64,000 bases of DNA, from assembly GCA_017656505.1 (NCBI GenBank), contig JACDNU010000006.1:1-64000 (forward strand), given 5' to 3'. A program made the position numbers and the translations under genes. How positions within the stretch are numbered: the stretch's first letter is position 1; each line of letters begins with the position of its first letter. The notes beneath the pieces are model-generated. The model was not told the origin of the DNA. It was given only the letters and a program-made list of their open reading frames with translations, and searched no databases. The stretch is from Archaeoglobus sp. Its GTDB lineage: Archaea > Halobacteriota > Archaeoglobi > Archaeoglobales > Archaeoglobaceae. This document shows positions 9,631 to 24,060 of this stretch, piece by piece.

Positions 9631-10983
9631 ATGCAGTCTCCCGTGCATCCAATCGATTATCGCTACGGCACCCCAGAAATGAAAAGGATTTGGAGTGAGG
9701 AGAGCAAAATAAAGAGGATGATTAGGGTTGAAATCGCTCTTCTGAAAGCTTTATCCAAAGCAGGATATTTTGAAATGGATTTCAAGGAGATAAAGCGAAA
9801 AACTCTCAAAATTAAACCGGAAGACGTCAAGGCGATTGAGGATGTGATAAAACATGATATAATGGCCCTCGTTAAAGCCATTTCCAATCAGCTCAGCGAG
9901 GCAGAGGCGAGATGGGTTCATTTCGGGGCAACTTCAAACGACATAATCGACACTGCAACGGCAACACAGCTTAGAGATACTGTAAAAATATTTGAGCTAA
10001 AGCTGAGAAAGCTCGCACTTTTGCTTAGCGAAAGGGCCGATGAGTTCAAGGAGGTTGTTTGTTTAGGAAGAACCCATGGTCAAGCCGCATTGCCAACAAC
10101 CTATGGCTTCAGATTCGCCATATGGGCTGCCGAAATAACGAGACACTACTTGAGACTTCAGCAGCTCAAAGAAAGATTGCTTGTCGGCCAACTAAGTGGA
10201 GCTGTGGGGACACAGGCGGCCTTCGGCGATAAAGGTTTTGAGATTGAAGAAGAGGTTATGCGACTCCTAAATTTAAAGCCCGCCATAATCTCTTCCCAAA
10301 TACTACCCCGGGACATCTACTGCGAGTATGTTGAATTTCTGGCAAATCTCTCCGCCACCCTCGAGAAGATCGCCACAAACCTGAGAGTTCTTCAAAGGGC
10401 TGAAGTTGCAGAACTTTCTGAGAAATTCGAGAAAAAGCAGGTTGGAAGTTCAACGATGCCTCACAAGCGAAATCCAATCGACAGCGAGAACATCTGTGGA
10501 CTTGCAAGGATTGTCAGAGGATTTGTCGAACCGCAGCACCAGAGCTCGATTCTCTGGGAGGAGAGAGACTTGACAAATTCGTCGGCAGAGAGAATAACGC
10601 TCGTTGAATCAACCATCTTGGCAGATCACATTCTAACAAAAACAATAAAGGTGATCTCGAATCTCAGTCTTAATGAAGAGGCTATAAGAAGAAATCTCGA
10701 AGCCCAGAAGGGATTGAATCTGAGTGAGGCGGTGATGGTTGCTCTAACGCTTAAAGGTGTGAGCAGACAGGAGGCGCATGAGATTCTGAGAGAGGCGGCG
10801 ATGAAGGCTTACGAAAGCGGAGAAGAATTTCTTGCTGTGCTTAGAAAAGATGACAGAATAAGGAAGTATCTTTCAGAAGATGAATTAGAAAGCCTGCTAA
10901 AGCCTGAGAATTACCTCGGAACAGCTGTCAGAAGAGTAGAATCGGTAATCGAATGGATTAACTCTGTTTTCAAAAACTCATGA
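9631..10983 (+). CDS. purB: Adenylosuccinate lyase
   Basis: Cytoplasmic enzyme of purine synthesis that cleaves SAICAR to AICAR and adenylosuccinate to AMP, releasing fumarate. It has 450 residues, in line with the family. Fumarase/aspartase superfamily landmarks are clear: HFGATSNDIIDTA (first substrate loop), GRTHGQAALPTTYG with the catalytic-region histidine, and the signature loop GSSTMPHKRNPI (around residue 270) containing the catalytic serine. Start at the ATG directly after a TATA box at leaderless distance. Isolated from other pur genes here. Confidence 0.96.
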   Translation: MQSPVHPIDYRYGTPEMKRIWSEESKIKRMIRVEIALLKALSKAGYFEMDFKEIKRKTLKIKPEDVKAIEDVIKHDIMALVKAISNQLSEAEARWVHFGATSNDIIDTATATQLRDTVKIFELKLRKLALLLSERADEFKEVVCLGRTHGQAALPTTYGFRFAIWAAEITRHYLRLQQLKERLLVGQLSGAVGTQAAFGDKGFEIEEEVMRLLNLKPAIISSQILPRDIYCEYVEFLANLSATLEKIATNLRVLQRAEVAELSEKFEKKQVGSSTMPHKRNPIDSENICGLARIVRGFVEPQHQSSILWEERDLTNSSAERITLVESTILADHILTKTIKVISNLSLNEEAIRRNLEAQKGLNLSEAVMVALTLKGVSRQEAHEILREAAMKAYESGEEFLAVLRKDDRIRKYLSEDELESLLKPENYLGTAVRRVESVIEWINSVFKNS

Positions 10984-10995
10984 TGATAATTATCA
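10984..10995. promoter_or_regulatory. Perfect 12-base palindrome upstream of the small DUF5371-like gene
   Basis: TGATAATTATCA is a perfect palindrome directly after the purB stop and directly before the TATA-like TTTAAGTA at 11001-11008. A protein bound here would sit over the BRE position. Together with the inverted repeat at 11016-11033 it looks like an operator pair around one promoter. The regulator is unknown. Confidence 0.45.
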
Positions 10996-11015
10996 AAAGG
11001 TTTAAGTACTAGCAG

Positions 11016-11033
11016 CTATCATTATTATGATAG
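11016..11033. promoter_or_regulatory. Inverted repeat overlapping the ribosome binding site of the DUF5371-like gene
   Basis: CTATCAT-TATT-ATGATAG is a perfect inverted repeat with seven-base arms. Its end touches the GGTGAG ribosome site (11033-11038) and it covers the expected transcription start. It shares TGAT/ATCA half-sites with the palindrome at 10984. It could be a DNA operator, or fold in RNA as a weak A/U hairpin near the ribosome site. Confidence 0.45.
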
Positions 11034-11042
11034 GTGAGTTAA

Positions 11043-11234
11043 ATGGTAAAGATCGTACATGCTCAGACGGTATTGCCAGAAAGCGTTTTGGAGGAGCTTA
11101 AGAAGAAAACAGGGGAGGGAGCAACTAAAGATGCTATAGCAAAGGCTGTAGATCACTATTTAATGTGCCCCTACACACATGAAGAACCCCTTGAAAAGAG
11201 ATTGGAAGAAGTTTTGAAAAAGAAGAAAAAGTAG
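11043..11234 (+). CDS. Small DUF5371-like protein
   Basis: A 63-residue soluble protein beginning MVKIVHAQTVLPESVLEEL, with a helical middle (KKKTGEGATKDAIAKAVDHYL), a CPY motif and a lysine-rich tail. From memory it resembles the archaeal DUF5371 family; the KTGE-TKDAIAKAVDHY stretch also has the look of a ribbon-helix-helix protein's helical part (KEAI-type). If so, the two palindromes in its own promoter could be its binding sites. Function unknown. Clear ribosome site GGTGAG before the ATG. Confidence 0.75.
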   Translation: MVKIVHAQTVLPESVLEELKKKTGEGATKDAIAKAVDHYLMCPYTHEEPLEKRLEEVLKKKKK

Positions 11235-11268
11235 TTTTTACCTTTTCCAAAATCCAATTTTCCTCCCC

Positions 11269-12339
11269 TTAAAATCTCTCCGGGGAGAATTTATCGTAGG
11301 TCTTGCCTTTAAGGATTACCTCTGCAACAAGCTCCCCAGCAGCTGGCCCTATCGTCATCCCATATTTTCCTAAGCCGTTCGCCTGGATGAAGCCTTTCAC
11401 ATTTGTTTCGCCAATTACTGGCAATCCATCTTTTCCACTGTCATAAACCCCAGCCCACTGCCTGAGCACAGATAAACCTTTGAGGCTAGGTATCATCTCC
11501 ACAGCCCTCTTGGCATATTTTATCAGAAAGTCCAGTGAAGATGAGGTTTCTGGATTGCTTACCTCCTTACCCAGTATTCCTCCAACAACCTCACCCCTCG
11601 CAGACTGGCTGAGATAGACACCATTTGAAACATTAAGAATATAAGGGTCTATGAAGGGTTTTAAGCTTTCAAGAACGCAGATCTCCTCCTTGATGATCGT
11701 ATTGTTCAGCTCTACTCCAGCAAGCTTGCTGATCTCATTGCTCCATGCTCCAGCAGCGTTCACAACGAAATCTGCCTTGTAAAACTCTCCGTTTGCTTTC
11801 AGCCCCTTCACTTCTCCCCCTTCTACGACAACTTCACTAACTTGCGTCATCGGCTTAATTTCTACCCCCCTTTCCTTACAGCCCTTTTCGTAACCCCATA
11901 TCACAGGCCAAGGGAAGATGACTCCTCCCTCCCCAAAAAACCCTCCTTCAACAGATTTAGGATTAAAGCCTTGAACCATGTTCTTTATCTCGTAAGGATC
12001 CACTTCCCTAACCTTCACACCCATCGATTTCTGCAAATGATATTCTTTCTCAAGCTCATCCAGATCAGCGTCGTTTTTTGCGACTTTCAGATAGCCATCT
12101 TTCCTAAGAAGAAAGTTGAAGTTAACCTCACCCTGGACGCTGTCGTAGATTCGAATGCTTTTTTTGGCAAGTTCGATTAGCTCTTTACTTCCAAGCATCG
12201 GAGTTATTCCTCCCGAATTCCTGCCCGATGAGCCATAGAGAGGGTATCTTCTCTCGAAAACGATAACCTCCGCTGAATTAGCGAGGTTGTAGGCAGCTGA
12301 AAGACCAACAATTCCGCTGCCGATAATCGCGATCTTCAT
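11269..12339 (-). CDS. FAD-dependent amino-acid dehydrogenase, beta (catalytic) subunit, DAO family
   Basis: 356-residue member of the D-amino-acid oxidase/glycine oxidase superfamily. The dinucleotide motif GSGIVGLSAAYNLA is at residues 7-20, FERR marks the acidic strand end and GRNSGGITP lies on the FAD face; the C-terminal part has GLGKYGMTIGPAAGELVAE. In dye-linked L-proline dehydrogenase PDH1 of Thermococcales the homologous beta subunit carries the proline-oxidising site. Here it is the last of four overlapping genes in the order alpha, ferredoxin, small iron-sulfur, beta, the same composition as PDH1. The substrate may instead be sarcosine, hydroxyproline or another amine, so the family call is firm and the substrate open. 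Confidence 0.85.
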   Translation of the reverse strand: MKIAIIGSGIVGLSAAYNLANSAEVIVFERRYPLYGSSGRNSGGITPMLGSKELIELAKKSIRIYDSVQGEVNFNFLLRKDGYLKVAKNDADLDELEKEYHLQKSMGVKVREVDPYEIKNMVQGFNPKSVEGGFFGEGGVIFPWPVIWGYEKGCKERGVEIKPMTQVSEVVVEGGEVKGLKANGEFYKADFVVNAAGAWSNEISKLAGVELNNTIIKEEICVLESLKPFIDPYILNVSNGVYLSQSARGEVVGGILGKEVSNPETSSSLDFLIKYAKRAVEMIPSLKGLSVLRQWAGVYDSGKDGLPVIGETNVKGFIQANGLGKYGMTIGPAAGELVAEVILKGKTYDKFSPERF

Positions 12340-12611
12340 TCCTCCTCACCTTCCATCAGGATGTAGAGTGGTACGGGATTAACTGGAGGTCTTTGCGTAG
12401 TTATGCCGATTTCGTCCACCGATTTCCCAGTTTTTTGGGCAAGAATCCTGAGAATGTGCATCAAACAGCCCTTACCCTGGCAAAAACCAGTGGTTGCTCC
12501 AGTGTATCTTTTAAGGCTTTCTATATCGTCGTAGCCCTCTTCGATCGCATGAATGATTTCTTCCTCGGTGAGATCCTCACATCTGCAAACTATCTTTCTG
12601 TCCTTGACCAT
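12336..12611 (-). CDS. BFD-like [2Fe-2S] small subunit of the dehydrogenase complex
   Basis: Small iron-sulfur protein of the bacterioferritin-associated ferredoxin (BFD) type. The four ligands are visible as CRCED near the N-terminus and GFCQGKGC about 35 residues later, the CxC and CxxxxC spacing of BFD domains. It probably passes electrons between the flavin subunits. I choose the ATG at 12611, which has GGTGAT five bases upstream; longer in-frame starts reach 12635 and would overlap the preceding gene by 11 bases. Its stop overlaps the beta-subunit start by four bases. Confidence 0.82.
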   Translation of the reverse strand: MVKDRKIVCRCEDLTEEEIIHAIEEGYDDIESLKRYTGATTGFCQGKGCLMHILRILAQKTGKSVDEIGITTQRPPVNPVPLYILMEGEEE

Positions 12612-12624
12612 TTCCATCACCCTT

Positions 12625-13107
12625 TCATCCTTCAATAATCCTTATCGCCCTGACATCGAAAATTAGCTCGGGATCCATCTCAACTCTTACTAGAGAAGTG
12701 TGATCGTTTTTCTCCGGCGGAAGAACCCATGTAACCTTTCCCTTTCCAACTTCCTCACCCTTTCTGTTAAGCAGAACTACCTCCTGACCTTTTTTAGGCC
12801 AAGGTAGGAATTCGTATGCGAGAGTTACATAGCCCTTACCATCCTTGATTCTGAGGATGAAAATAGCCAAACCTGGGCAAACCCTTATACACTGCATACA
12901 GCCATTGCACTTCTCATAGTCAACCTCCGGCGGAGCGTTTATGTTCTCCATCTTTATTGCATCGTACTTGCAGGATTCAATACATGGAGAGCAGGGGATT
13001 TCCTGCGGGCATTCGATGTATGCAACGTTCCTCTCTTCCAGCCTTTCCCTCGATGGTTTTGGTGGCAGTTCATCTTCCTCCAGATAACCTCTAACCAAGT
13101 AGCTCAT
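12625..13107 (-). CDS. 4Fe-4S ferredoxin subunit of the dehydrogenase complex
   Basis: 160-residue iron-sulfur protein. It has a CPQEIPCSPCIESCKYDAI cluster and a second CNGCMQCIRVCPG cluster, so it should hold two [4Fe-4S] centres, followed by a C-terminal beta domain. Its size (about 18 kDa) and place between the alpha and small subunits match the ferredoxin-like subunit of archaeal PDH1 complexes. The ATG overlaps the alpha-subunit stop by four bases, which indicates translational coupling. Confidence 0.85.
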   Translation of the reverse strand: MSYLVRGYLEEDELPPKPSRERLEERNVAYIECPQEIPCSPCIESCKYDAIKMENINAPPEVDYEKCNGCMQCIRVCPGLAIFILRIKDGKGYVTLAYEFLPWPKKGQEVVLLNRKGEEVGKGKVTWVLPPEKNDHTSLVRVEMDPELIFDVRAIRIIEG

Positions 13108-14675
13108 GCTCCCCCCTCCTCCATTGTAACTTTCTGCAATCCCGCTACTATCCTCGCACCGAAAGGTCCTTCCCTGAATTCCTTAAGATCTCTAACGACT
13201 TCCTCCCTGATTTTCAAAGCCTCATCTCCTCCATAGCCAATCTTTATCGCCGCATCTATGCCAGCAATCCTCCCCTCCATCATAGCAGCCGTTGCCTCCT
13301 CAATTCCCGCAACATCTCCTGCCACGTAAACCCCTTCAACTGTCGTTTCTCCATATTTGTTCCTCACCGGAACGAGACCACCAAGCTCGGGAACGAATTT
13401 CATTTCGCATCCAGCCTGATAAAGAAGCTCGTGAGTTGGAGAAAGACCTATTGCGATGCATATAAAGTCGCATTCTATTCTTTTTTCGCTTCCTTTAACG
13501 GGGCACCAGTTTTCATCCAGCTTTACAATCTCAGCAGCCTCAACCTTTTTCTTTCCAATCGCCCTCTGGATCGTGTAAGAGGTGTAAATTGGGACTCCAA
13601 GTCTCCTCACCTTAGCTGCATGAACAAAGTAGCCACCAATCCTAGGCATAGCCTCAACAATAGCAGCCACCTTAACTCCAGCTTGCATGAGCTGGTAGGT
13701 TAAGATTAAACCAACATTGCCCGATCCAACGATAAGACCCTTGTTGCCAGGCTTTATCCCATAGACATTCATCAAGGTTTGCACACCGCCAGCTCCGTAA
13801 ACTCCCGGCAGATCATTGTTCTCGAAAATAAGGGTTCTCTCATATGCTCCGGTTGCAACAACAATTTTCTTTGGTTTTATCCTTAAAAGCTTCTTTTCCT
13901 TCTCAACCGCCCCTACTATCCCATCGTAGATACCAAAAACCTTCGTTTCAAACCTGACGTCGATGTTTTTCAGTTCTTTTATCTCATCTGCCAGAATTGT
14001 TGCGATTCTTATACCCCTCGTTCCAGCCCTGTGCCTTCCGCTTCCAAAGAATCTGTGGGTCTGCTTAACCAGCTGTCCACCCAAAAAGGGATTTTCGTCC
14101 ATCAGGATTACCCTTGCTCCAGCTTTAGCTGCAAAAATAGCTGCACTCATGCCCGCTGGTCCACCACCAACCACAGCCAGATCCGTTTCAATTTCCTCAA
14201 AGCTTGCCTCTCCTTCAAAGACTTTTTTCGGCGGATTTCCTGTGCCTGCAAATCCCCTTACTCTTTTTGTAATGAACTCCCTAAGAATTCTCGGCCTGTT
14301 AAACTTCTTGTAGTGCGATCCATGTGGATAGAATCTGTCGATTATCGAATCAAGGACGCCAAGCAAGTCGTTGTCAGCATTCGGGAAGGAGTTCTGGGTT
14401 CGAACTTGCATACCATCCTTAACATAAACCTTGCAAACCCTTATGTTCGGAATTCCATCGACCTCCATCAAACATGAGGAGCACTTACCTATGGCACAGA
14501 AAAATCCTCTCGGTCTATGAAATCTGAAGGATCTACTGAAAGTCCTGACGCCGGCAGCATACAGAGCAGATGCTACTGTTTCTCCTTCGTAAGCCTTTAT
14601 AGGCTTCCCGTTGAAATATATCGTTACCTCTTTTCCCCTCTTGAACTCCACAATAGGATGATCTTCCAACCTCAT
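13104..14675 (-). CDS. Alpha subunit: [2Fe-2S] domain fused to FAD/NAD(P) oxidoreductase
   Basis: About 523 residues. The first 100 residues form a plant-type [2Fe-2S] domain (Fer2_4) with CAIGKCSSC and a later cysteine in RVCKVYV. The rest is a pyridine nucleotide-disulfide oxidoreductase fold: GGGPAGMSAAIFAAKAGA binds FAD, GSGNVGLILTYQLMQAG binds NAD(P), and GVYVAGDVAGIEEA is the second FAD motif. Relatives are sarcosine oxidase alpha, HcnA/HcnB and PDH1 alpha. It likely accepts electrons from the beta subunit, with NAD or quinone/ferredoxin as possible acceptor. The ATG at 14675 follows AGGTG; a GTG at 14684 would coincide with that ribosome site. First gene of the four-gene operon. Confidence 0.85.
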   Translation of the reverse strand: MRLEDHPIVEFKRGKEVTIYFNGKPIKAYEGETVASALYAAGVRTFSRSFRFHRPRGFFCAIGKCSSCLMEVDGIPNIRVCKVYVKDGMQVRTQNSFPNADNDLLGVLDSIIDRFYPHGSHYKKFNRPRILREFITKRVRGFAGTGNPPKKVFEGEASFEEIETDLAVVGGGPAGMSAAIFAAKAGARVILMDENPFLGGQLVKQTHRFFGSGRHRAGTRGIRIATILADEIKELKNIDVRFETKVFGIYDGIVGAVEKEKKLLRIKPKKIVVATGAYERTLIFENNDLPGVYGAGGVQTLMNVYGIKPGNKGLIVGSGNVGLILTYQLMQAGVKVAAIVEAMPRIGGYFVHAAKVRRLGVPIYTSYTIQRAIGKKKVEAAEIVKLDENWCPVKGSEKRIECDFICIAIGLSPTHELLYQAGCEMKFVPELGGLVPVRNKYGETTVEGVYVAGDVAGIEEATAAMMEGRIAGIDAAIKIGYGGDEALKIREEVVRDLKEFREGPFGARIVAGLQKVTMEEGGA

Positions 14676-14848
14676 GATCCACACCTTTTATTCTGATTTT
14701 TATGGGTTGCTCCTAAATGATTATACTGTATAACAGAGTTGGGATGGCTGGGAAATGTATTTAACCTTTGCCTTTTTTTATCTTTATTAAAATTTTAATA
14801 CCCCATCTAAATCCAATTATTTTTAATTACATTATTTGTTTCAATTAC

Positions 14849-14892
14849 AGTTAATAATAATTTAACTATGTTACATTCGCAACATTTATATA
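14849..14892 (+). promoter_or_regulatory. Promoter and candidate operator of the homocysteine gene cluster
   Basis: TTTATATA at 14885-14892 is a strong TATA box about 25 bases before the GTG at 14914. Upstream, AGTTAA and TTAACT at 14849-14867 form an inverted repeat with a seven-base spacer, ending 17 bases before the TATA box, where an archaeal activator or repressor could bind. The surrounding spacer (14676-14913) is very A/T-rich and also serves the divergent dehydrogenase operon; I see nothing else in it. Confidence 0.5.
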
Positions 14893-14913
14893 TTGGGAAG
14901 GGATGCTGCAATC

Positions 14914-16398
14914 GTGAAGCGAAAAACGATTGATGGGATTAACGAGAGGATTAAAGAGGGTTCTGCCGTTGTTGTCACTGCAGAGGAGATGAAAGAGATA
15001 GTAGAGGAGAAAGGAGCGGAAAAAGCAGCGGAAGAGGTTGATGTTGTCACTACTGGCACATTTGGTGCTATGTGCTCTTCGGGTGTTTTCTTCAATTTCG
15101 GCCATTCGGACCCTCCAATAAGGATGCAAAGGGTATGGCTCAATGATGTGGAGGCTTACACTGGCATCGCTGCCGTTGATGCGTTTCTGGGTGTTACTCA
15201 GCTTTCCAAAAGCGTCGAAGAGTATGGTGGCGCCCATGTCATCGAAGAGTTCGTGAAAGGCAGGGAGGTTGAGTTGAGAGCTGAAAGCGATGGTACAGAC
15301 TGCTATCCCAGAAAAGAGATCGCTACGGAGATAACTCTAGAAGATGTTAACCAAGCCGAGATGCTTAATCCTAGAAATGCTTATCAGAGATACAAAGCAG
15401 CTACGAACTCATCAAATAAGGTTCTGAAAACTTACATGGGGACTCTGCTTCCAAATTTCGGAAATGTTACCTTTGCAGGAACAGGGGAGATTTCCCCACT
15501 CAACAACGACCCAGAATACAGAACAATAGGTTTAGGTACGAGGATATTCCTTTGCGGAGCAGAAGGATACATAATCGGAGCTGGAACGCAGCATTCTCCA
15601 CCTTTCGGTACGTTGATGGTTAAAGGGAATCTGAAGGAGATGAGTCCCGATTACATGAGGGCATGCGTCTTCCCGGGCTATGGAGTTTCGATGTTCATAG
15701 GGATAGGCATCCCGATTCCCATCCTAGATGCAGAAATGGCCAAATTTACAGCTGTGAAAGATAGAGAGATCGAAACAGAAATTCTCGACTATGGAGTGCC
15801 GAGAAGAGATAGACCAGTTGTGAGAAAGGTGAATTATGAAGAGCTGAAAAGCGGTAAAGTTGAAATAAACGGAGAGGAAGTCAGGGTTTCACCCCTCTCA
15901 AGCTATTTTGTGGCAAGGAAGATAATGGAAGAACTCAAGCGGAGAATTGAGAATGGAGAATTCTTCCTTTCAAAACCAATCGAGCGGATTCCAGTAAGGA
16001 GCGATTTCAAGCCAATGAGGCAAAAAGAGATTGTCGTTGTCAAAAACGTGATGTCTGAAGCGATCAGAATTAGCCCGGAAACCAGCGTTATGGATGCGTC
16101 GAGGATAATAATAGACAAGAGTGTTAACCATCTGCCCGTTGTAGATTCCGAGGGAAAGCTCAGGGGAATAGTAACCTCGTGGGACATAGCGAAAGCCGTT
16201 GCGATGGGGAGAATGGGGAAGGTTGAAGAGATCATGACGACTAAAGTTGTGACCGTGCATCCTGAAGATCCGGTTGAATTTGCAGCTGAGAAGCTAAGAA
16301 GATATGACATCTCCGCCTTACCCGTGATAGATGCAAAAAGAAGAGTTCTTGGCTTGATTACTAGTGAGGATCTCAGTAGATTGATTGTTAAGAGGTGA
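14914..16398 (+). CDS. DUF39 homocysteine biosynthesis protein with C-terminal CBS pair
   Basis: Large subunit type (COG1900, DUF39) of the system shown genetically in Methanosarcina acetivorans to make homocysteine from aspartate semialdehyde and sulfide. The N-terminal DUF39 domain covers about residues 1-375, with VVVTAEEM, FGAMCSSGVFFNFGHSDPP and GGAHVIEEFV; two CBS motifs follow (VMSEAIRISPETSVMDASRI and IMTTKVVTVHPEDPVEFAAE). The CBS pair of the homologue MJ0100 binds S-adenosylmethionine or methylthioadenosine, so feedback sensing is a reasonable inference. The GTG at 14914 gives the family's usual N-terminus and lies at leaderless distance from the TATA box; a TTG at 14893 would fall within one or two bases of that box. 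Its two partner genes follow directly. Confidence 0.92.
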   Translation: MKRKTIDGINERIKEGSAVVVTAEEMKEIVEEKGAEKAAEEVDVVTTGTFGAMCSSGVFFNFGHSDPPIRMQRVWLNDVEAYTGIAAVDAFLGVTQLSKSVEEYGGAHVIEEFVKGREVELRAESDGTDCYPRKEIATEITLEDVNQAEMLNPRNAYQRYKAATNSSNKVLKTYMGTLLPNFGNVTFAGTGEISPLNNDPEYRTIGLGTRIFLCGAEGYIIGAGTQHSPPFGTLMVKGNLKEMSPDYMRACVFPGYGVSMFIGIGIPIPILDAEMAKFTAVKDREIETEILDYGVPRRDRPVVRKVNYEELKSGKVEINGEEVRVSPLSSYFVARKIMEELKRRIENGEFFLSKPIERIPVRSDFKPMRQKEIVVVKNVMSEAIRISPETSVMDASRIIIDKSVNHLPVVDSEGKLRGIVTSWDIAKAVAMGRMGKVEEIMTTKVVTVHPEDPVEFAAEKLRRYDISALPVIDAKRRVLGLITSEDLSRLIVKR

Positions 16399-16402
16399 TC
16401 AA

Positions 16403-16789
16403 ATGCTTCTATACCTTCATTTTGATTCAAAAACTGTTAAAGAACCTGTAATATCCCTAACAACTCTCGAGAAAAAAACCCTGATAAACATAATCCGTGG
16501 AAGCGTTGGGGCGAGAGAAGGGGAGCTATTTGTCGAGATAGAAGATTCTAGGGCATCTGAGATAATAGAATTCATAAGGTCGAAAGGCGTTGAGGTTACG
16601 GAAATAAGGGAGAAAATAGCGAAGAGCGAGGACTGTATTCATTGCGGAGCGTGTATCAGCATATGCCCAGTTGAGGTTTTCAGTCTTAACGACGATTTCA
16701 GAGTTGAGGCAGAGGTTGAGAAATGCATCAGATGCGGAATCTGCATATACGTTTGCCCAGTAAAGGCTCTCGAACTTCCAAGCATTTAA
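16403..16789 (+). CDS. NIL domain ferredoxin of homocysteine synthesis
   Basis: 128-residue protein: an N-terminal NIL domain (about residues 1-75), the small ACT-like fold also found in methionine importers, followed by two [4Fe-4S] motifs, CIHCGACISICP and CIRCGICIYVCP. The homologue in Methanosarcina (partner of the DUF39 protein) is required for sulfide-dependent homocysteine formation and may deliver electrons or sulfur. The ATG follows GGTGATC and lies four bases after the DUF39 stop, so the two are co-translated. Confidence 0.92.
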   Translation: MLLYLHFDSKTVKEPVISLTTLEKKTLINIIRGSVGAREGELFVEIEDSRASEIIEFIRSKGVEVTEIREKIAKSEDCIHCGACISICPVEVFSLNDDFRVEAEVEKCIRCGICIYVCPVKALELPSI

Positions 16790-16801
16790 TCTTTTTATTT
16801 T

Positions 16802-17521
16802 ATGAGATACCAGAGATATAGATTCAAACACAAGGAGACGATCGTAACGATTTTGGCAGAGAACGATACGCAATATGAGCTTGCCGTAGAAGCTATTTTA
16901 CGGGCGAGAAGGTTTATTGAAGAGAGGATAAAGAAGGATCCCTACTTTCTGATAACGTACGAACCTTACGAATTCCAAGTGGAGTTGGATGAAGTAACAT
17001 CGAGAATGATTAGAGCATCAAAAATAGCTAAAGTCGGGCCGATGGCAGCCGTTGCTGGAACGATTTCTGCTTTTGCAGTGGAAAACATGATAAAGGCTGG
17101 AGATTTTGCCTTGGTTGATAATGGAGGCGATATAGCGATGCATTCGTGCGACATTACAATAGGGATCTACATGCCAAGAAATCTGAACCTAGGTTTTCGG
17201 ATTAAAACTGATGGTTTTTACTCAGTCTGCACTTCCAGCGGTACGGTTGGACACTCCGTAAGCTTGGGTTTTGCTGATGCAGTTACAGTATTCGCCAAAG
17301 ATGCATCCATAGCCGACTGTTTTGCTACAAGAATAGGAAACGAGATAAAGGAGAATTTTGGAAAGGAAGAAATCGAGAAAACTCTCGAAATGATTTGGAA
17401 AGAGGCTAAAAATTACGTAGATGGAATCCTTGTCGTAAAAGAAGAGATTATCGGTAAAATCGGGAATGTTCCGAAGCTGAGGAAGGTGAAAATAGAACCA
17501 GATCTAATTACGAGGGGTTGA
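16802..17521 (+). CDS. UPF0280 (COG2122, ApbE-like) homocysteine biosynthesis protein
   Basis: 239-residue protein of the UPF0280 family, distant kin of the ApbE flavin transferase fold; GPMAAVAGTISAFAVE and DNGGDIA are its conserved segments. In Methanosarcina a COG2122 protein is the third component needed for homocysteine formation, but encoded away from the other two; here it is adjacent. The gene starts 12 bases after the ferredoxin stop, with only a T-rich TTTTTATTTT before the ATG, so it may be both co-transcribed and separately promoted. Confidence 0.9.
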   Translation: MRYQRYRFKHKETIVTILAENDTQYELAVEAILRARRFIEERIKKDPYFLITYEPYEFQVELDEVTSRMIRASKIAKVGPMAAVAGTISAFAVENMIKAGDFALVDNGGDIAMHSCDITIGIYMPRNLNLGFRIKTDGFYSVCTSSGTVGHSVSLGFADAVTVFAKDASIADCFATRIGNEIKENFGKEEIEKTLEMIWKEAKNYVDGILVVKEEIIGKIGNVPKLRKVKIEPDLITRG

Positions 17522-17534
17522 AGCAATTATCGAG

Positions 17535-17750
17535 CTAGATAACCGCCTTCTTTCTGAACTTATGACCGCATACAGGGCAAGAATAGCTACCCATGGTCGG
17601 ATTAAACTGCCACCACCACTCCTCCTGGGCAAAGCTGCAGTTTGGACACCTTATAACCACTTTTAACCCCTCAGTTGTTTTCTTGATATAATCATAAAAA
17701 TGTTCATATAAGGTTTTTGGTTTTCGTAATGATCTACCGGTGGGCAGCAC
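17535..17750 (-). CDS. Small zinc-ribbon protein
   Basis: A 71-residue protein with one zinc ribbon: CPNC then CPVC separated by 20-odd residues, with WWWQFNP between them. The basic N-terminus (RSLRKPK) could contact nucleic acid. I do not recognise a named family. The GTG start lies inside the end of pyrD, overlapping by 17 bases, so the two are probably on one message. No in-frame ATG exists downstream. Confidence 0.7.
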   Translation of the reverse strand: MLPTGRSLRKPKTLYEHFYDYIKKTTEGLKVVIRCPNCSFAQEEWWWQFNPTMGSYSCPVCGHKFRKKAVI

Positions 17751-18615
17751 CGATTAGATCCTCTGCATCGAGCTTCTCCCTTCTCAAGTAAGCAATCAAA
17801 CTTTCTTTCAGACTGTAAAATATTCTCTGACTGTAGAAAACTGCAGAACCAATCTGCACGGCTCTAGCTCCTGCAAGCATGAATTCGACAACATCCTTCC
17901 AAGTGGTTGCTCCTCCACACGCTATAATAGGAATGTTCAGTTCTTCAAAAAGATCCCAAACAATACGCATTGCTATGGGCTTGATGGCCTCTCCACTAAT
18001 TCCCCCACTAATGTTTGAGAGAATGGGTTTCTTCAGGGCTATATCTATCGCCATCCCTTTAAGCGTGTTTATCGCAACTATACCATCCGCCCCGCTTTCT
18101 TCCGCTGCTTTCGCAACCTCAAGATAATTCGAAAGGGCCGAGATTTTCGCAAAAACTGGTTTGGAGGTTTTTGACTTAACCGCCTTTACAATTTCCCCAA
18201 CGAGCTCTGGGTCATTTCCAATAGTAAGGCCGGCATCTTCTATATGGGGACAGCTGAGGTTTAGCTCGAAAGCATCAGCCATATCGAAACACCCAACGAG
18301 TTTAGAGAAATCTTCAGAATCCGATCCGAAAAGGCTCACAACTAGCTTCGACGCTTTGCTGAACTTCTTTAACTCTTCAGAGAAGTTCTTCGCTCCTGGG
18401 GAGGCTAAGCCCACCGCATTCAGTATACCATGGGAAAGATTTATAACTGCAGGATTTCTGTAGCCTTCCCTGGGCTCCAATCCGATGCTTTTCGTAACCA
18501 CCGCCCCGGCATTCTCAGCTATTAAATTGAGTGAGGATGCATAACTTCCCAAAATTCCACTTGCAAGCATTAACGGGTTTTTTAGTTTCATTCCGCAAAC
18601 TTCAACTTCAAGCAT
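17734..18615 (-). CDS. pyrD: Dihydroorotate dehydrogenase (class 1B type)
   Basis: FMN enzyme that oxidises dihydroorotate to orotate in pyrimidine synthesis, 293 residues. NPLMLASGILG begins the barrel, SIGLEPREGY and NAVGLASPG are conserved, and ELNLSCPH holds the family's active-site region with the class 1B cysteine. VAINTLKGMAID and GGISGEAIKPIA bind the FMN phosphate. Class 1B enzymes usually work with PyrK, not seen nearby. The ATG at 18615 is preferred over one at 18636, because the latter lies against a TATA box whose centre is 26 bases before 18615. Confidence 0.93.
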   Translation of the reverse strand: MLEVEVCGMKLKNPLMLASGILGSYASSLNLIAENAGAVVTKSIGLEPREGYRNPAVINLSHGILNAVGLASPGAKNFSEELKKFSKASKLVVSLFGSDSEDFSKLVGCFDMADAFELNLSCPHIEDAGLTIGNDPELVGEIVKAVKSKTSKPVFAKISALSNYLEVAKAAEESGADGIVAINTLKGMAIDIALKKPILSNISGGISGEAIKPIAMRIVWDLFEELNIPIIACGGATTWKDVVEFMLAGARAVQIGSAVFYSQRIFYSLKESLIAYLRREKLDAEDLIGAAHR

Positions 18616-18637
18616 TGGATTATCTTCATGCTCCAAG

Positions 18638-18644
18638 TATAAAA
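18638..18644 (-). promoter_or_regulatory. TATA box of pyrD
   Basis: TTTTATA read on the minus strand, centred 26 bases before the pyrD ATG at 18615. It decides the start: transcription would begin at that ATG, making a leaderless message. Confidence 0.55.
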
Positions 18645-18819
18645 TTTTAAGGCTTTGAATGTCGACTTGGATAAAATTGTTTTTTAGATATGATAACCAT
18701 CAAATTTATTGTTAGCATGAAAAATCTTCGGTTAACTTCATTTTCGAATCAAACCCTCATCATTAGATAAATAAATTTTAAACCGCAAAATAAATATTCT
18801 TCCGAGATAAGTGTGACTG

Positions 18820-19386
18820 ATGATAATCCCGCTGGCTCTGCTGATCAGCATAGCTGGTGTCTTCCATCTGATGGGCATTCATTCGATAGGCGCCCTTTTT
18901 ACCGGAATCTCACTAGTTTACGGTATGGTTATAGGATACTTAAGCATAAAAGAGCTTCCTGACAAGTTCTTTTTTACCAACACCTACTTCCTAACCTTCA
19001 CCCTCCCCGGCTCAATCCAAATTTCTCATTCCTTAGGCTACACCTTCCCACTGAACGTTATTGTTTGGTTCACATCTTATTTCGCCGGGGGGCTAATATT
19101 ATGGGTGTTTTTTCTTTGGAGGAAACTCGATAGAGAGATCCTACTATTTTTCCTAATTTTCCTTTTCTGCTTGAGTATAATCAACTTCTTCACATGGGCA
19201 AACGTTAACGGTGTACTTTACCCAGAATTAATCGTAAGGTCATTCAGATTCTTCTATCGATCATTCATTAATTTCTGCCTAGCCCCAGAATTCATTTTTA
19301 TGACTGAAGACATAAGCGTGCAGATTTTTATTGCACCCTTCATTTTCCTGATCGTTTCCCTCTTCGTTTTGGTGAAAAAGCTTTAA
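18820..19386 (+). CDS. Unknown integral membrane protein
   Basis: 188 residues with about six hydrophobic segments, the first beginning directly at the start (MIIPLALLISIAGVFHLMG) and the last ending VSLFVLVKKL. Few charges lie between the segments and no enzymatic motif is visible. I do not recognise the family. A TATA-like AAATAAATATT lies about 25 bases before the ATG, so it is probably expressed from its own promoter; the 200-base spacer to pyrD is A/T-rich and otherwise empty. Confidence 0.65.
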   Translation: MIIPLALLISIAGVFHLMGIHSIGALFTGISLVYGMVIGYLSIKELPDKFFFTNTYFLTFTLPGSIQISHSLGYTFPLNVIVWFTSYFAGGLILWVFFLWRKLDREILLFFLIFLFCLSIINFFTWANVNGVLYPELIVRSFRFFYRSFINFCLAPEFIFMTEDISVQIFIAPFIFLIVSLFVLVKKL

Positions 19387-19410
19387 ATCATAAATTAGCA
19401 ATTGCAAAAC

Positions 19411-19770
19411 ATGATTTATTTTAAATCAGGGGATGTTTTGAAAGAGATCGAGCTATTGCAAAACAAAACCGCCAAAATTATCCAAGAGCATCTGCCTATA
19501 AAAGGGATTGCAAAAAGGTGGGGAGACGAAATATACTTTGAAACTCCTATTAACATTTCCGAGCCGGAAGATTCGAGGGAAGTTGTTGAAGTAGGAGATG
19601 TTGCTTACTGGATTCCCGGCAAAGCAATTTGCATCTTTTTCGGCAAAACACCCATAAGCGATGATAAAATAAGACCAGCATCTCCAGTAAATCTCTTTGG
19701 AAAGATTAAAGATGTATCTGGTCTGGAAAGAATCGAAGAAGGTGATGAAGTTCTGATTTTTAAAGAGTAG
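19411..19770 (+). CDS. Cyclophilin-like fold protein (COG2164 type)
   Basis: 119 residues, predicted mostly beta, with WGDEIYFETP, VGDVAYWIPGKAICIFFGKTP and VNLFGKI, phrases typical of the small archaeal/bacterial proteins with a cyclophilin-like barrel (TM1367 group). No prolyl isomerase active site is known for the group and its role is unclear. Start taken at the ATG; a TTG three codons earlier is possible. It lies 24 bases after the membrane protein gene on the same strand. Confidence 0.7.
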   Translation: MIYFKSGDVLKEIELLQNKTAKIIQEHLPIKGIAKRWGDEIYFETPINISEPEDSREVVEVGDVAYWIPGKAICIFFGKTPISDDKIRPASPVNLFGKIKDVSGLERIEEGDEVLIFKE

Positions 19771-19854
19771 TTTGGGGACAAGGGATGGAGTATTTCCGAA
19801 AAAAATCACAATATTGAAGTACTATAATGGTTTCTTTCCGTTAAGGTGGTGCAA

Positions 19855-20799
19855 ATGGTAAGTGTTAATGAGATGGCGATGGATATTGTAGAGGATATGC
19901 TCGATTTTGAAGAAGAGCTAAGAATTGAATCCAAAAAACTCGAGAATGGTGCGACAGTTATCGATTGCGGCGTTAATGTGCCTGGGGGTTATGAAGCTGG
20001 TATAATGTACACCCAGATCTGCTTGGGCGGCTTGGCGGAGGTGAGCATCGTCACGGACACGATTAATGACATTCCCTTTGCTTTCATAACTGAATACACC
20101 GACCATCCCGCAGTAGCCTGCTTGGGAAGCCAGAAAGCCGGATGGGCCGTTAGCGTGGGAAAGTACTTCGCAATGGGAAGTGGGCCTGCAAGAGCTTTGG
20201 CGTTAAAACCGAAGAAAACCTACGAGCAGATCGAGTATCAGGATGATTCCGAGTATGCTGTCATAGCCTTGGAGGCTTCTAAACTCCCGAATGAGGAGGT
20301 TATGGATTTCATAGCCAAGGAATGTGAGGTTGAACCGGAGAACGTTTACGCAGTTGTCGCTCCAACAGCTTCGATTGTTGGAAGTGTTCAGATTTCGGGC
20401 AGAATAGTTGAGACAGCCATCTACAAGATGACAGAGATAGGGTATGATCCAAAGCAGATAATAAGCGGAGCTGGGAGATGTCCGATTGCCCCCATTCTTG
20501 AAAATGATTTGAAGGCGATGGGTTCAACGAATGACAGCATGATGTACTACGGCAGTGTTTTCCTCACCGTTGAGAAATACGATGAGATCCTCAAGAATGT
20601 TCCATCTAACACTTCAAAAGACTACGGAAAGCCATTCTATGAGATATTCAAGGCTGCAAACTACGACTTCTACAAGATCGATCCGAATCTCTTCGCCCCA
20701 GCACAGATTGCTGTGAATGACAAATCGACAGGCAAGACATACGTCCATGGCAAACTGAACGCTGAAGTTTTGCTGAAGTCTTACCAGATCGAACTTTAA
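19855..20799 (+). CDS. mch: Methenyltetrahydromethanopterin cyclohydrolase
   Basis: Cytoplasmic C1 enzyme interconverting formyl- and methenyl-tetrahydromethanopterin, a step of methanogenesis and of the reverse acetyl-CoA pathway in sulfate-reducing Archaea. 314 residues, family length. Conserved segments are [52 protein letters not shown] and [11 protein letters not shown]. The ATG follows AAGGTGGTG. It stands alone, as mch often does. Its presence is the strongest metabolic marker in the window for an H4MPT-using archaeon. Confidence 0.97.
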
Positions 20800-20915
20800 G
20801 AAAACATAAATCTTTTATTTACTTTATTTAGCCAGTGGATTCTTTTCATCTAATTTTTCCATTTTCTTTTTAAATTTTCGAAAGATTGAAATATAATATA
20901 TTCTACTGTTAATCG

Positions 20916-21272
20916 ATGGCAAAGGTTCTGATAGTTGATGATGATATCACAGTGAGAGATGTGCTCAAGGTAATGTTGAACGGACACGTTATAGTTGAAG
21001 CCACAAACGGAAGCGATGCTGTGAAGTATTTCAAAATCTTCAAGCCCGACATTGTTCTGATGGATGTCATGATGCCAGAAATGGATGGTGTTCAAGCTAC
21101 GAAAAAGATTCTTGAGATTGATCCCAACGCAAAGATTATCGCTATAACAGCATTTGCTTCAAGTAAAGGTCAAGAAATGCTCGATGCTGGGTCTGTAGCT
21201 GTTCTAGAGAAACCTTTTACGAGAAAAAGCATAAACGAGCTCATAGGAAAGTATGTAGGTCCAAAATCTTAA
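20916..21272 (+). CDS. Stand-alone CheY-type receiver protein
   Basis: 118-residue receiver domain with no output domain. The acidic pocket is D8-D10, the phospho-acceptor is D50 in LMDVMMPEMDG, the switch threonine is in AITAFAS and the lysine in LEKPF. No histidine kinase or chemotaxis gene is nearby, so the partner is unknown. TATATT about 25 bases before the ATG suggests a leaderless single-gene transcript. Confidence 0.9.
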   Translation: MAKVLIVDDDITVRDVLKVMLNGHVIVEATNGSDAVKYFKIFKPDIVLMDVMMPEMDGVQATKKILEIDPNAKIIAITAFASSKGQEMLDAGSVAVLEKPFTRKSINELIGKYVGPKS

Positions 21273-21313
21273 GATGGGAACTTTTAAATACCCTTCTTAT
21301 AAAACATAAGGAC

Positions 21314-21547
21314 ATGTCACTGAAAGAAAAAGTCGAAGAGATCATTGAAAAGGATATTAGGCCAGCCCTAATGAGGGATGGCGGGAACATAGCTCTTGTA
21401 GATGTGGAGGAAGAGGAGGGTGTTGTTAAGGTTCAGCTTCTTGGCGCTTGCGGTGGATGTCCGATGTCCCAGATCACGCTCACGATGGTGGTTGAGCAGC
21501 ATCTGAGGAGTAAAATTCCCGAGATAAAGAAGGTTGTTCCAGTTTAA
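21314..21547 (+). CDS. Nfu/NifU C-terminal domain iron-sulfur carrier
   Basis: A 77-residue protein consisting only of the NifU C-terminal (Nfu) domain: IRPALMRDGGNIALVDV and the cluster-binding GACGGCPMSQITL with CxxC. Such proteins carry or transfer [4Fe-4S] clusters. The ATG follows AAGGACATG with a short leader. Single gene; no sufBC or iscS beside it. Confidence 0.92.
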   Translation: MSLKEKVEEIIEKDIRPALMRDGGNIALVDVEEEEGVVKVQLLGACGGCPMSQITLTMVVEQHLRSKIPEIKKVVPV

Positions 21548-21636
21548 TTTAGTATAATATTTTTTATATAATTACTTATCATATGATGTTGATAAATATC
21601 AAAAAGATTAAATAGCTATACTCTGTTTTTGCTATA

Positions 21637-22050
21637 ATGATATACATCGAGCCGATTAACAGACTTATTAGAGATAAAAAGGCTGTTAAGGGAGAGAAAG
21701 TAAGCAAAAGGTATTTCGGGGGTTTTTGCGAGTGTGGAGGGATTATGTATCAGAAATCTTGGTTCCATTTCGATGGTCATTCGATTCTCATTTCGGAATG
21801 CGAAAAGTGCTGGAAAAACGAGTTCATAAACTTCAATGGTAGGACAAAAAGTGGTTCGAAAGGCAAAATTCAAGTAGTGGAGAGGGCCGATTTTAGAGAG
21901 TTCATAAAAGATTTCCTCTCCACCTCCGAATTCGAAGCTTTAATTGCGAAGAGCAGGGGTGAAAGATACAATTCCGCTGCCTTGAGCAGGGCGAAAAAGA
22001 AGCTTGAGGAGATGGATCTCCCCTTCGATGAAATTCTCGCATACATCTGA
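21637..22050 (+). CDS. Conserved-looking zinc-binding protein of unknown function
   Basis: 137 residues. The N-terminal half holds a likely zinc site, CECGG and later CEKC, about 26 residues apart; the C-terminal half is helical and charged (SRAKKKLEEMDLPFDEILAYI). This layout, a zinc ribbon plus a helical part, could suit a DNA- or RNA-binding protein, but I do not recognise the family. It is transcribed alone toward the convergent flippase gene. Confidence 0.65.
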   Translation: MIYIEPINRLIRDKKAVKGEKVSKRYFGGFCECGGIMYQKSWFHFDGHSILISECEKCWKNEFINFNGRTKSGSKGKIQVVERADFREFIKDFLSTSEFEALIAKSRGERYNSAALSRAKKKLEEMDLPFDEILAYI

Positions 22051-22074
22051 TTTTATTAAATAAATAACATCTTC

Positions 22075-22101
22075 TAAATTATCAATAAATTATAAATTAT
22101 C
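22075..22101. repeat. Direct repeat at the 3' end of the flippase-like gene
   Basis: TAAATTATC occurs at 22075-22083 and 22093-22101, period 18. Read on the minus strand the unit is GATAATTTA and its TAA is the stop codon of the gene ending at 22097, repeated downstream. Confidence 0.65.
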
Positions 22102-23116
22102 GATCTAGATATCTTGATTTTAGGATTTTTACGTTGACAACCAAACCGAATAGGAGGTTTGTATGGTAGGTTATTATTCTCCAGATCGCTACTAAAGAAC
22201 CCAGATACTCCTTACCAACAAAGAGGGAGTAAAAGTAAAACATTCCTGTCTCCGCAATACCACTGCTTCCTGGCGTAATCGGTGCGAGAGAGATTATAAC
22301 AAGGAAGAGTTGAGATGCAACTGATTCAGCCCAGTGGGGATTGGTTTTTAGAGCAAGAAGCAAAGCTGAAGGAACAAGAAACTCCGAAAACCATATCACA
22401 GCTGTTACGGCAAACAAAAATGCGAACTTGCTTTTCGGGATCGTAGCGAGCTGAACGGAAGCTTCTCTGAAAAAGAAAAGTTCTTTGGTTATCACAGTAG
22501 TTATTCTCTCTGCTTTTCCTTTTCCTATAAGTTTTTTGGCTAGAGAGGTCAGCTTTGCAGCAAGTTTCTCAACATTCCTCGGATCTTTGAATGAGAAGTA
22601 TAGAAAAGCTATGAAAAGAACAAAGAAAATTGTGAATGCAACGCCGGAGTAAATTCCAAATTTCGTTGTAAAGTCGGAGATGAAGACCATAACAGGTAAT
22701 GCTGAGATGAAAAATATCGCGTCTAAAAGCCTCTCTGCCAAAACAATGGCAGAAGATGCCCCAACACTCATGCCCCTATCTGTGAGCATTTTAACGCGTA
22801 GAGGTTCACCACCAGCAGAAGAAGGAGTAATCGCAGCCAGAAAACCTGATGCGAGGGAAGTTTGGAAGGCATACGAGAAGTCTATGTTATTACCCAAAGT
22901 GGAAGAGAGAATTTTCAGCCTATAGGCCCAGAAAATCCAGAAGAGAATGTGGAAAACGAGAGCCAAGCCAATGTAAAACGGGTTCAGCTCATAAATTATC
23001 TTCCAAGTTAGATGCGTCTCGGTGAATTTGAAAATGAGTGCCATCGCTAGAACGCTTATAAGCACTCCTGCTACCGTCGCTCTTTTCACTCCACGAGTCT
23101 TTTCTGTGGCTTCCAT
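22097..23116 (-). CDS. UPF0104 / AglD-type flippase-like membrane protein
   Basis: 339-residue protein with about eight membrane segments of the lysylphosphatidylglycerol synthase transmembrane (UPF0104) family. The conserved segments SLASGFLAAITPSSAGGEPLRVKML and ITPGSSGIAE are clear. In Archaea such proteins occur with glycosyltransferases and are suspected to move or act on lipid-linked sugars; the haloarchaeal AglD is one relative. The ATG follows GAGGTG and overlaps the glycosyltransferase gene before it by 31 bases. Last gene of a four-gene operon starting with mptE. Confidence 0.85.
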   Translation of the reverse strand: MEATEKTRGVKRATVAGVLISVLAMALIFKFTETHLTWKIIYELNPFYIGLALVFHILFWIFWAYRLKILSSTLGNNIDFSYAFQTSLASGFLAAITPSSAGGEPLRVKMLTDRGMSVGASSAIVLAERLLDAIFFISALPVMVFISDFTTKFGIYSGVAFTIFFVLFIAFLYFSFKDPRNVEKLAAKLTSLAKKLIGKGKAERITTVITKELFFFREASVQLATIPKSKFAFLFAVTAVIWFSEFLVPSALLLALKTNPHWAESVASQLFLVIISLAPITPGSSGIAETGMFYFYSLFVGKEYLGSLVAIWRIITYHTNLLFGLVVNVKILKSRYLDR

Positions 23117-24060
23117 TCAACACCTCTCCCTCGCAGAAAGTCAGCTAGCGATGAAAATGCTGCAGCCTGAAGAACTAAGGCATGGATTAGAAGACCTAGA
23201 GTTATTTTTAATTTTCTCCTCCCGTATTTTGCCAAAAGAAGAGGCGGAGATAGGAGAATGAGTGGAAGAAAGAGGGAAATGAAATAGGTGAGTGTGAGAG
23301 ACAGAAGCCATGAGATTTTAAAACGAATGTCAGACGACTTTTTTACTTGATTGAAATAGTTCCAGAGCTGCAAACCGCCGAAATACCACCTTTTTCGCTG
23401 AAAGTAAAGATCTTTCCAGTCAAGCGGTGCCTGTTCTCTTATCCAAGAATCCCTTACAAACAAAGCTTTGTATCCCAGAGAGTGCATTCTCGTAGCAAAT
23501 TCTGCATCTTCCGTAATAAACCTCTCGTCAATCCTGTATTTTTTTAAAATATCCCACCTTAAAACTCCAATTAACCCGTTAAACTGCTTGAATCCAGATT
23601 TCTTAAGTAAAAAATTGATCAACGCATACTCCACCTCAATTGTTTCCGAGCAAAGATTGATTGGGTTGCTGATCCTTCGCGGTGAGGAGGCAATGTAAGC
23701 ATTATCTGCACTTTCCAAACTCCTTATCGCATTTACCAAAAAATCTCTGGCCGGTTCGGAGTCAACATCGAAGATGGCAACGTAATCTGGCGAGAAGTTT
23801 TTGAGATGGCTTATCGCATCATTTATCGCCCCTGCACGTTTTCCCCTTGAATGCTTCCTGACTAACACATCCATACCCATTTTTAGCGGAATTTTTGGCC
23901 TCTCATCCATATCATTTCTAACATCGATGACGTAGAGGAATTTACAGTCAAAATCCGAGGAGTTAAGGTTCTTTAAATCCAAAACCGATCGTTTAATCAT
24001 TTCTGCAGGCTCAAAAGGTGATACAGGCACGATAATCGCAACCCTAATTGCAACCCTCAT
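23086..24060 (-). CDS. Family 2 glycosyltransferase, membrane-anchored
   Basis: 324 residues. A GT-A domain has FDVDSEP (the DxD metal site), ITEDAEFATRMHSLGY with the catalytic-base region, and QRKRWYFGG, the QxxRW motif of processive cellulose-synthase-like enzymes. Two membrane segments follow (around residues 240-300). It therefore probably adds sugars at the cytoplasmic membrane face. GGTG precedes the ATG; the gap to the GT4 gene is eight bases. Confidence 0.88.
   Translation of the reverse strand: MRVAIRVAIIVPVSPFEPAEMIKRSVLDLKNLNSSDFDCKFLYVIDVRNDMDERPKIPLKMGMDVLVRKHSRGKRAGAINDAISHLKNFSPDYVAIFDVDSEPARDFLVNAIRSLESADNAYIASSPRRISNPINLCSETIEVEYALINFLLKKSGFKQFNGLIGVLRWDILKKYRIDERFITEDAEFATRMHSLGYKALFVRDSWIREQAPLDWKDLYFQRKRWYFGGLQLWNYFNQVKKSSDIRFKISWLLSLTLTYFISLFLPLILLSPPLLLAKYGRRKLKITLGLLIHALVLQAAAFSSLADFLRGRGVEWKPQKRLVE

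Follow-up and report, generated by a model that had tools for sequence, protein, structure and literature searches.

A compact gene trio of Archaeoglobus sp. as its very probable route to homocysteine

Does a run of three genes in the genome of Archaeoglobus sp. (Archaeoglobaceae) supply the organism with homocysteine? The genes lie in the stretch analyzed here, the first 64,000 nucleotides of contig JACDNU010000006.1 (assembly GCA_017656505.1; hereafter the window), and encode a DUF39 protein ending in a pair of CBS domains (HcyBio protein), a ferredoxin with a NIL domain (NIL-ferredoxin), and a member of UPF0280/COG2122. A reading of the sequence alone (the sequence-only reading) had proposed that the three are neighbors on one strand and constitute the anaerobic pathway to homocysteine. 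Open reading frames (ORFs) and family scores far beyond chance confirm the adjacency. Judged by sequence, the trio is with high probability the standard L-aspartate-semialdehyde sulfurtransferase (L-ASST) operon and the organism's route to homocysteine. This pathway assignment is sound and already known, and the idea of control by S-adenosylmethionine (SAM) is already in print. What is new, but modest, is the co-occurrence of the UPF0280 and HcyBio proteins across genomes, together with a predicted ApbE fold of the UPF0280 protein that goes without an invariant cysteine.

Family assignment of the three proteins

The HcyBio protein reaches 490 bits against PF01837 (cut-off 26.2) and thus belongs to the family of the L-ASST large subunit. 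Against TIGR03287, which describes methanogenesis marker 16 (MMP16, a coenzyme M synthase), it scores 179.7 bits and remains below the cut-off of 363.95; an identity as MMP16 was rejected, and the protein is of the homocysteine rather than the coenzyme M type. Its CBS part matches PF00571 in two stretches (104.5 bits). The second protein combines a NIL domain (PF09383, 37.8 bits, cut-off 24) with matches to Fer4 families and two 4Fe-4S sites, whose eight cysteines at positions 78, 81, 84, 88 and 108, 111, 114, 118 are kept in all 21 aligned rows. The third scores 280.3 bits (cut-off 275) against NF003324 (PRK04334, 'hypothetical protein'), a family which we take to be UPF0280/COG2122. It also matches the structure 2o34 of the Protein Data Bank (PDB), DVU1097 of Desulfovibrio, at E 2e-20, and the profile of its family alignment finds the same entry at 1.3e-48. 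By the ORF calls, the genes share one strand and are separated by 4 nt (HcyBio/NIL) and 12 nt (NIL/UPF0280). Coordinates are given in Table 1.

An alignment of 46 HcyBio-CBS proteins, ranging from Archaeoglobi to Lokiarchaeota, shows Cys54 and Cys130 in every row. They are the counterparts of Cys54 and Cys131 in Methanosarcina, as mapped via the row of Methanosarcina spelaei (L062; L and G numbers denote our loci and genomes) and not via MA1821 itself. Cys54 of the Methanosarcina enzyme is essential in vivo (PMC12068725). A persulfide on the conserved cysteine was reported by Rauch and colleagues, who also proposed that the thioaldehyde is reduced by the NIL-ferredoxin (as cited in PMC5764234). 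Proteins of this pathway are genetically needed, in Desulfovibrio vulgaris all three of them (PMC5764234).

Along this line, the host copy would work like the known L-ASST. HcyBio would transfer sulfur from sulfide to aspartate semialdehyde via a persulfide on Cys54, the NIL-ferredoxin would supply the electrons for reduction of a presumed thioaldehyde to homocysteine, and the UPF0280 protein would, by a mode of action that we infer, let HcyBio use sulfide efficiently.

The CBS pair as a candidate sensor

Among solved structures, the CBS pair is most closely related to that of MJ0100 (phmmer E 2.1e-34); in the model of the protein, it superimposes on 3kpc with Z 22.0, a root-mean-square deviation of 1.1 over 122 residues and 48% identity. 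When the complete 494-residue model was used for a structure search, only CBS domains appeared among the matches listed. MJ0100 itself is presumably an HcyBio-CBS protein, because the HcyBio protein of Methanocaldococcus sp. SG1 terminates in the same CBS domain and the chain in the MJ0100 structure is numbered 386-508. The entry titles of 3kpb, 3kpc and 3kpd name SAM and 5'-methylthioadenosine (MTA) as ligands; these ligands belong to MJ0100.

Within the 46 rows, T421 of the first CBS motif is invariant and D424 is kept in 45, while D486 of the second motif is kept in only 31 and the second site is thus more variable. By analogy with MJ0100, the suggestion of the sequence-only reading that the CBS pair binds SAM is a reasonable one: the pair likely binds SAM and probably serves, with SAM and MTA as ligands, as an end-product sensor. 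The NIL domain may bind methionine in a similar role, and the sign of SAM control is likewise presumed. Control by SAM via CBS and by methionine via NIL has already been proposed (PMC12068725).

Sulfide supply and alternative routes in the host genome

The host assembly comprises 95 contigs and is rated 99.6% complete. Both DsrA (600.5 bits) and DsrB (551.2 bits) are encoded, which supports a sulfite- or sulfate-reducing life and hence a supply of sulfide, in good agreement with the sulfide-producing host that had been assumed. Aspartate-semialdehyde dehydrogenase (Asd, 519.6 bits) and homoserine dehydrogenase (435.2 bits) are present as well, and the genome-wide search revealed a single HcyBio protein. 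Family matches, invariant cysteines and Asd together support the assignment to the anaerobic pathway.

A working MetX/MetZ route had been named beforehand as the observation that would speak against this assignment; we looked for it in the 95-contig genome and found none. PF01053, the family of MetB, MetC, MetY and MetZ, gave five partial matches, the best at 33.9 bits exceeding the cut-off of 27 and the other four remaining below. Full-length scans scored two of the five proteins as aspartate-aminotransferase-like and the others as a sugar aminotransferase, a NifS-type cysteine desulfurase and HisC. No MetX was identified among the six alpha/beta hydrolases of the genome, and MetA (PF04204) had no match in it. 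In the family scans of these proteins, only matches below E 1e-20 or 1e-30 were considered. A backup route from MetX or MetA plus MetB, MetY or MetZ was therefore rejected, as these searches provided no candidate.

Gene order and co-occurrence in relatives

We analyzed two samples, the host genome with 59 relatives (60 genomes) and a set of named loci, i.e., the best 80 of 579 relatives among the matches listed. Eight of the latter end too near a contig end, leaving 72 evaluable loci. Here, a trio was counted if the NIL gene lies at most 400 nt from the HcyBio gene and the UPF0280 gene at most 400 nt from the NIL gene.

HcyBio is found in 52 of the 60 genomes (51 full matches and a shortened one in G004). 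Matches to the UPF0280 profile (E <= 0.001) likewise occur in 52 genomes; 50 of these are strong (at least 186 bits), all in HcyBio-bearing genomes, and two are weaker. Strong UPF0280 matches thus accompany HcyBio in 50 of 52 genomes, compared with none of the eight that lack it, and the two HcyBio genomes without a UPF0280 match are only 80% and 72% complete. Fisher's test over the 59 relatives, with their relatedness ignored, yields 2.0e-8.

Adjacent trios are found in 33 of the 60 genomes, equivalent to 33 of the 50 with both genes; in three the genes are apart on one contig and in 14 they are on separate contigs, these 17 being counted irrespective of contig ends. The named loci reveal 37 trios, 26 pairs without adjacent UPF0280 and nine HcyBio genes alone. 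Trios occur, e.g., in Archaeoglobaceae, Methanocellales, Methanomicrobiales, Methanolobus, Methanosalsum, Altiarchaeota, Bathyarchaeota, and Hadesarchaea, and the NIL and UPF0280 genes overlap by 4 nt in nine of 20 loci (starts chosen by script). Where UPF0280 is not adjacent, it is encoded elsewhere in the genome in all 29 named genomes searched. These represent 29 of 35 non-adjacent loci; L094, L098, and L120 were omitted with UPF0280 elsewhere in the locus, and L045, L046, and L049 as loci on contigs of G012, G031, and G014, for which the 60-genome search shows UPF0280. The 29 genomes may overlap the 60, and the two counts are not summed.

Nine HcyBio-CBS genes are without an adjacent NIL-ferredoxin gene (L053, L054, L056-L060, L074, and L077), in records of Methanophagales, ANME-2, and other Methanosarcinales or Methanomicrobia. 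In all nine genomes a NIL-ferredoxin is encoded elsewhere, eight at full length and one shortened, and so is UPF0280.

Given this frequency in genomes and named loci, compactness is common in archaea. The sequence-only reading had held the adjacency to be noteworthy; instead, it is ordinary for the lineage, and a three-gene run, DET0921:DET0919 of Dehalococcoides, is already in print as apparently encoding the DUF39 pathway (PMC5764234). This run, compared here as a run of three genes, belongs to a bacterium. The excerpts of PMC8351635 and PMC5424206 add nothing on gene order. Recurrent adjacency and co-occurrence of UPF0280 and HcyBio do support the view of the trio as a functional unit.

An exception is given by Methanosarcina. 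The L-ASST of Methanosarcina acetivorans (MA1821-MA1822 and MA1715) resembles the host system in its HcyBio-CBS protein, NIL-ferredoxin, UPF0280 protein, and both conserved cysteines, but its UPF0280 gene, judged by locus number, lies away from the pair, as had been claimed. Likewise, Methanosarcina spelaei (L062) and Methanosarcina sp. MSH10X1 (L066) carry only the pair side by side and encode UPF0280 at another site of the genome. A further difference to Methanosarcina acetivorans is the lack of an additional HcyBio protein, e.g., MMP16, in the host genome. The claim that all three proteins are required in Methanosarcina holds in part: MA1715 is important at low sulfide and additional sulfide rescues the mutants; it is in Desulfovibrio vulgaris that all three were shown to be needed (PMC5764234). 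In strain Miyazaki F of this sulfate reducer, DvMF_1464, DvMF_0262, and DvMF_0044 are all needed for homocysteine (PMC5764234), but are scattered, judged by their locus numbers.

Predicted fold and conserved residues of the UPF0280 protein

The UPF0280 protein has no match to a Pfam family up to E 10, ApbE included, and so cannot be placed in the ApbE family by sequence. Its model (pLDDT 94.5) points to the ApbE T-fold. Apart from 2o34 (VIA Z 25.3), the model resembles the flavin transferases ApbE, Ftp, and FmnB (VIA Z 15.4-17.6), with the next fold, urate oxidase, at only 8.5, and Foldseek retrieves 39 ApbE-type chains at E 1.0e-6 to 1.5e-4. The UPF0280 profile finds entries of TP0796 at E 0.81-0.93 only. 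In this weak local profile alignment, D172 and T176 stand opposite Asp284 and Thr288 of TP0796, numbered by our count. Among 36 UPF0280 rows, D172 and S145 are invariant and T176 is kept in 34. The histidine nearest the conserved TSS stretch, H151, is His in 18 rows, Pro in 17, and Arg in one. For comparison, the catalytic set of Vibrio cholerae ApbE consists of Asp285, Ser241, and His257 (PMC12052999).

Not a single cysteine is invariant in the 36 rows; the best-kept column, C143, holds Cys in 29 rows, Ala in six, and Gly in one. For a COG2122 protein of Methanococcus, a Cys cluster close to the end has been suggested (PMC9431491), but no cluster of this type is conserved in our rows.

Alternative explanations

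An HcyBio protein could act on another aldehyde, e.g., sulfoacetaldehyde, as a coenzyme M synthase of the MMP16 kind, with homocysteine made otherwise. The family HcyBio/COG1900 does include MMP16, and L-ASST may partly replace MMP16 in Methanosarcina (PMC12068725). We consider this very unlikely for the host in view of the low TIGR03287 score, the CBS domain, which occurs only on the L-ASSTs in a four-methanogen alignment (PMC12068725), and the failure to find an alternative homocysteine route in the genome. It is extremely unlikely that the genes are chance neighbors and that UPF0280 serves a different process. Adjacency in 33 of 50 genomes and, across many groups of archaea, in 37 of the 72 evaluable named loci, the recurrent 4-nt overlap, the co-occurrence in both samples, and a correlation of r = 0.98 between the mutant fitness of UPF0280 and the DUF39 gene in Desulfovibrio (PMC5764234) all argue for a connection. 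Several observations nevertheless weigh against the L-ASST operon as we read it, most of them on the side of chance. UPF0280 lies away from the pair in 17 of 50 genomes, so membership in the operon is not required. The 12-nt gap in front of the UPF0280 gene is T-rich and no ribosome-binding site is visible in it; a separate UPF0280 transcript is therefore possible. The two weaker UPF0280 matches, partial ones at 98.6 bits (G036) and 91.2 bits (G037), come from HcyBio-less genomes of the same order and represent either a divergent UPF0280 or a different protein of ApbE fold. A point of another kind concerns the step after homocysteine: methionine synthase PF01717 has no match in the genome, though MesC was not searched for. 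Archaeoglobus has been placed in a divergent MesC family (PMC7857596).

Less clear is what the UPF0280 protein contributes to the L-ASST. It might be a persulfide or sulfur carrier which passes sulfur from a cysteine of its own to Cys54 of HcyBio, and the close co-occurrence of both proteins as well as the cysteine at position 143 in most rows fit such a role. The predicted ApbE fold does not, and because no cysteine is invariant, a cysteine-borne relay as the mechanism of the whole family is doubtful; we regard a carrier role as possible, yet rather unlikely. UPF0280 could still supply sulfide in another way or act enzymatically on HcyBio. A long shot of the latter kind is a metal- and nucleotide-using enzyme of ApbE fold that would activate HcyBio, e.g., by modifying a threonine in the stretch D43-V-V-T-T-G-T49 beside Cys54. 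D43, V45, T46, G48, and T49 of this stretch are kept in all 46 HcyBio rows and T47 in 45, the stretch as a whole is loosely similar to the motif targeted by ApbE, D-x-x-[S/T]-G-A-[S/T] (PMC12052999), and such a modification would explain why the two proteins are so closely associated. The strict flavinylation motif, however, is found in none of the 46 rows, and the poorly conserved H151 near the presumed active site speaks against a modification, too.

Promoter and start of the operon

The HcyBio ORF starts with GTG at 14914, and an in-frame TTG is located at 14893. The GTG start is supported by the position of the TATA box TTTATATA (Table 1) and by the spacing in relatives, where the best TATA-like octamer, matching 6-8 of 8 letters, is found 25-31 nt upstream of the used start in 19 of the 22 regions compared. 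The remaining three are L009, L048, and L081, the last two being measured from the start of a tblastn match and not from a gene start. From this arrangement, the transcript of the HcyBio gene is likely leaderless. The sequence GAGGTGATC spans the end of the HcyBio gene just ahead of the NIL-ferredoxin start and resembles a ribosome-binding sequence. The three genes would be carried on one message.

Immediately upstream of the TATA box we observed GTTACATTCGCAAC, with half-sites GTTnC/GnAAC, as the sole exact copy within the window. It is identical in the same-genus loci L010, L014, and L016 and differs by two letters in L004; it represents either a regulator site or a mere promoter element. 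In contrast, GTAATATT, seemingly recurrent in relatives upstream of the HcyBio gene, does not occur in exact form within the 64-kb window. A known riboswitch or other Rfam RNA was rejected after a gathering search of 10000-24000 without matches, and plasmid carriage after blastn found no match in a plasmid collection, a weak test.

Table 1. Features of the trio, its surroundings, and the two partial matches in other genomes; positions refer to the window unless a contig is given.
Feature	Position	Strand	Length	Remarks
HcyBio/DUF39/COG1900a + CBS pair (L-ASST large subunit)	14914..16398	+	494 aa	PF01837
HcyBio domain	14965..15969	+		PF01837 positions 1-349
CBS pair	16027..16395	+		closest solved relative MJ0100 (3kpb/3kpc/3kpd, with SAM and MTA)
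NIL-ferredoxin (L-ASST small subunit)	16403..16789	+	128 aa	PF09383, Fer4 families; NIL domain 16406-16603
UPF0280/COG2122 protein	16802..17521	+	239 aa	NF003324, 2o34; predicted ApbE (T-fold) fold
TATA box TTTATATA	14885..14892	+		centre 25 nt upstream of GTG start
GTTACATTCGCAAC	14870-14883			regulator site or promoter element
FAD subunit, BFD-like, ferredoxin-like, SoxA-like genes	11269-14684	-		divergent set
Short frame	~17530-17670	-		probably small zinc-ribbon protein
Hydrophobic protein	18820-19386	+	188 aa	
Cyclophilin-like protein	19402-19770			PF04126
mch	19846-20799	+		
Partial UPF0280-profile match, same-order genome	G036:C205:2058-2627			
Partial UPF0280-profile match, same-order genome	G037:C5:71301-71795			

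Neighboring genes

Upstream of the trio, a divergent set encodes an FAD subunit, a BFD-like 2Fe-2S protein, a ferredoxin-like protein, and a SoxA-like subunit; the set resembles a heterotetrameric sarcosine oxidase or amino-acid dehydrogenase. HcyBio has a SoxA-like neighbor in L016, L023, L025, L029, L048, and L081 as well. L004, L010, and L014, which carry GTTACATTCGCAAC or its near-copy, have no SoxA-like gene in the upstream stretch examined.

Between the trio and pyrD, a short frame with CPNC and CPVC pairs and the end GSYSCPVCGHKFRKKAVI probably encodes a small zinc-ribbon protein. It is followed further downstream by the gene of a 188-aa protein, hydrophobic and membrane-like by eye and with no Pfam or NCBIfam match at E <= 0.001, which adjoins the gene of a cyclophilin-like protein. 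The gene of methenyltetrahydromethanopterin (methenyl-H4MPT) cyclohydrolase, mch, is located 2.3 kb downstream of the trio. In L053, L056, and L058 (two Methanosarcinales and one ANME-2), mch lies closely downstream of an HcyBio gene without adjacent NIL.

Conclusions

Among archaea, the three genes commonly form such a compact run, with Methanosarcina as a deviating case. Two constraints emerge for the role of COG2122: the protein accompanies HcyBio in almost all genomes analyzed, and its fold is predicted to be that of a flavin transferase, with no cysteine kept in all rows. For the organism itself, the trio explains how an archaeon with dsrAB, in which no MetX or MetY was found, probably makes its homocysteine.

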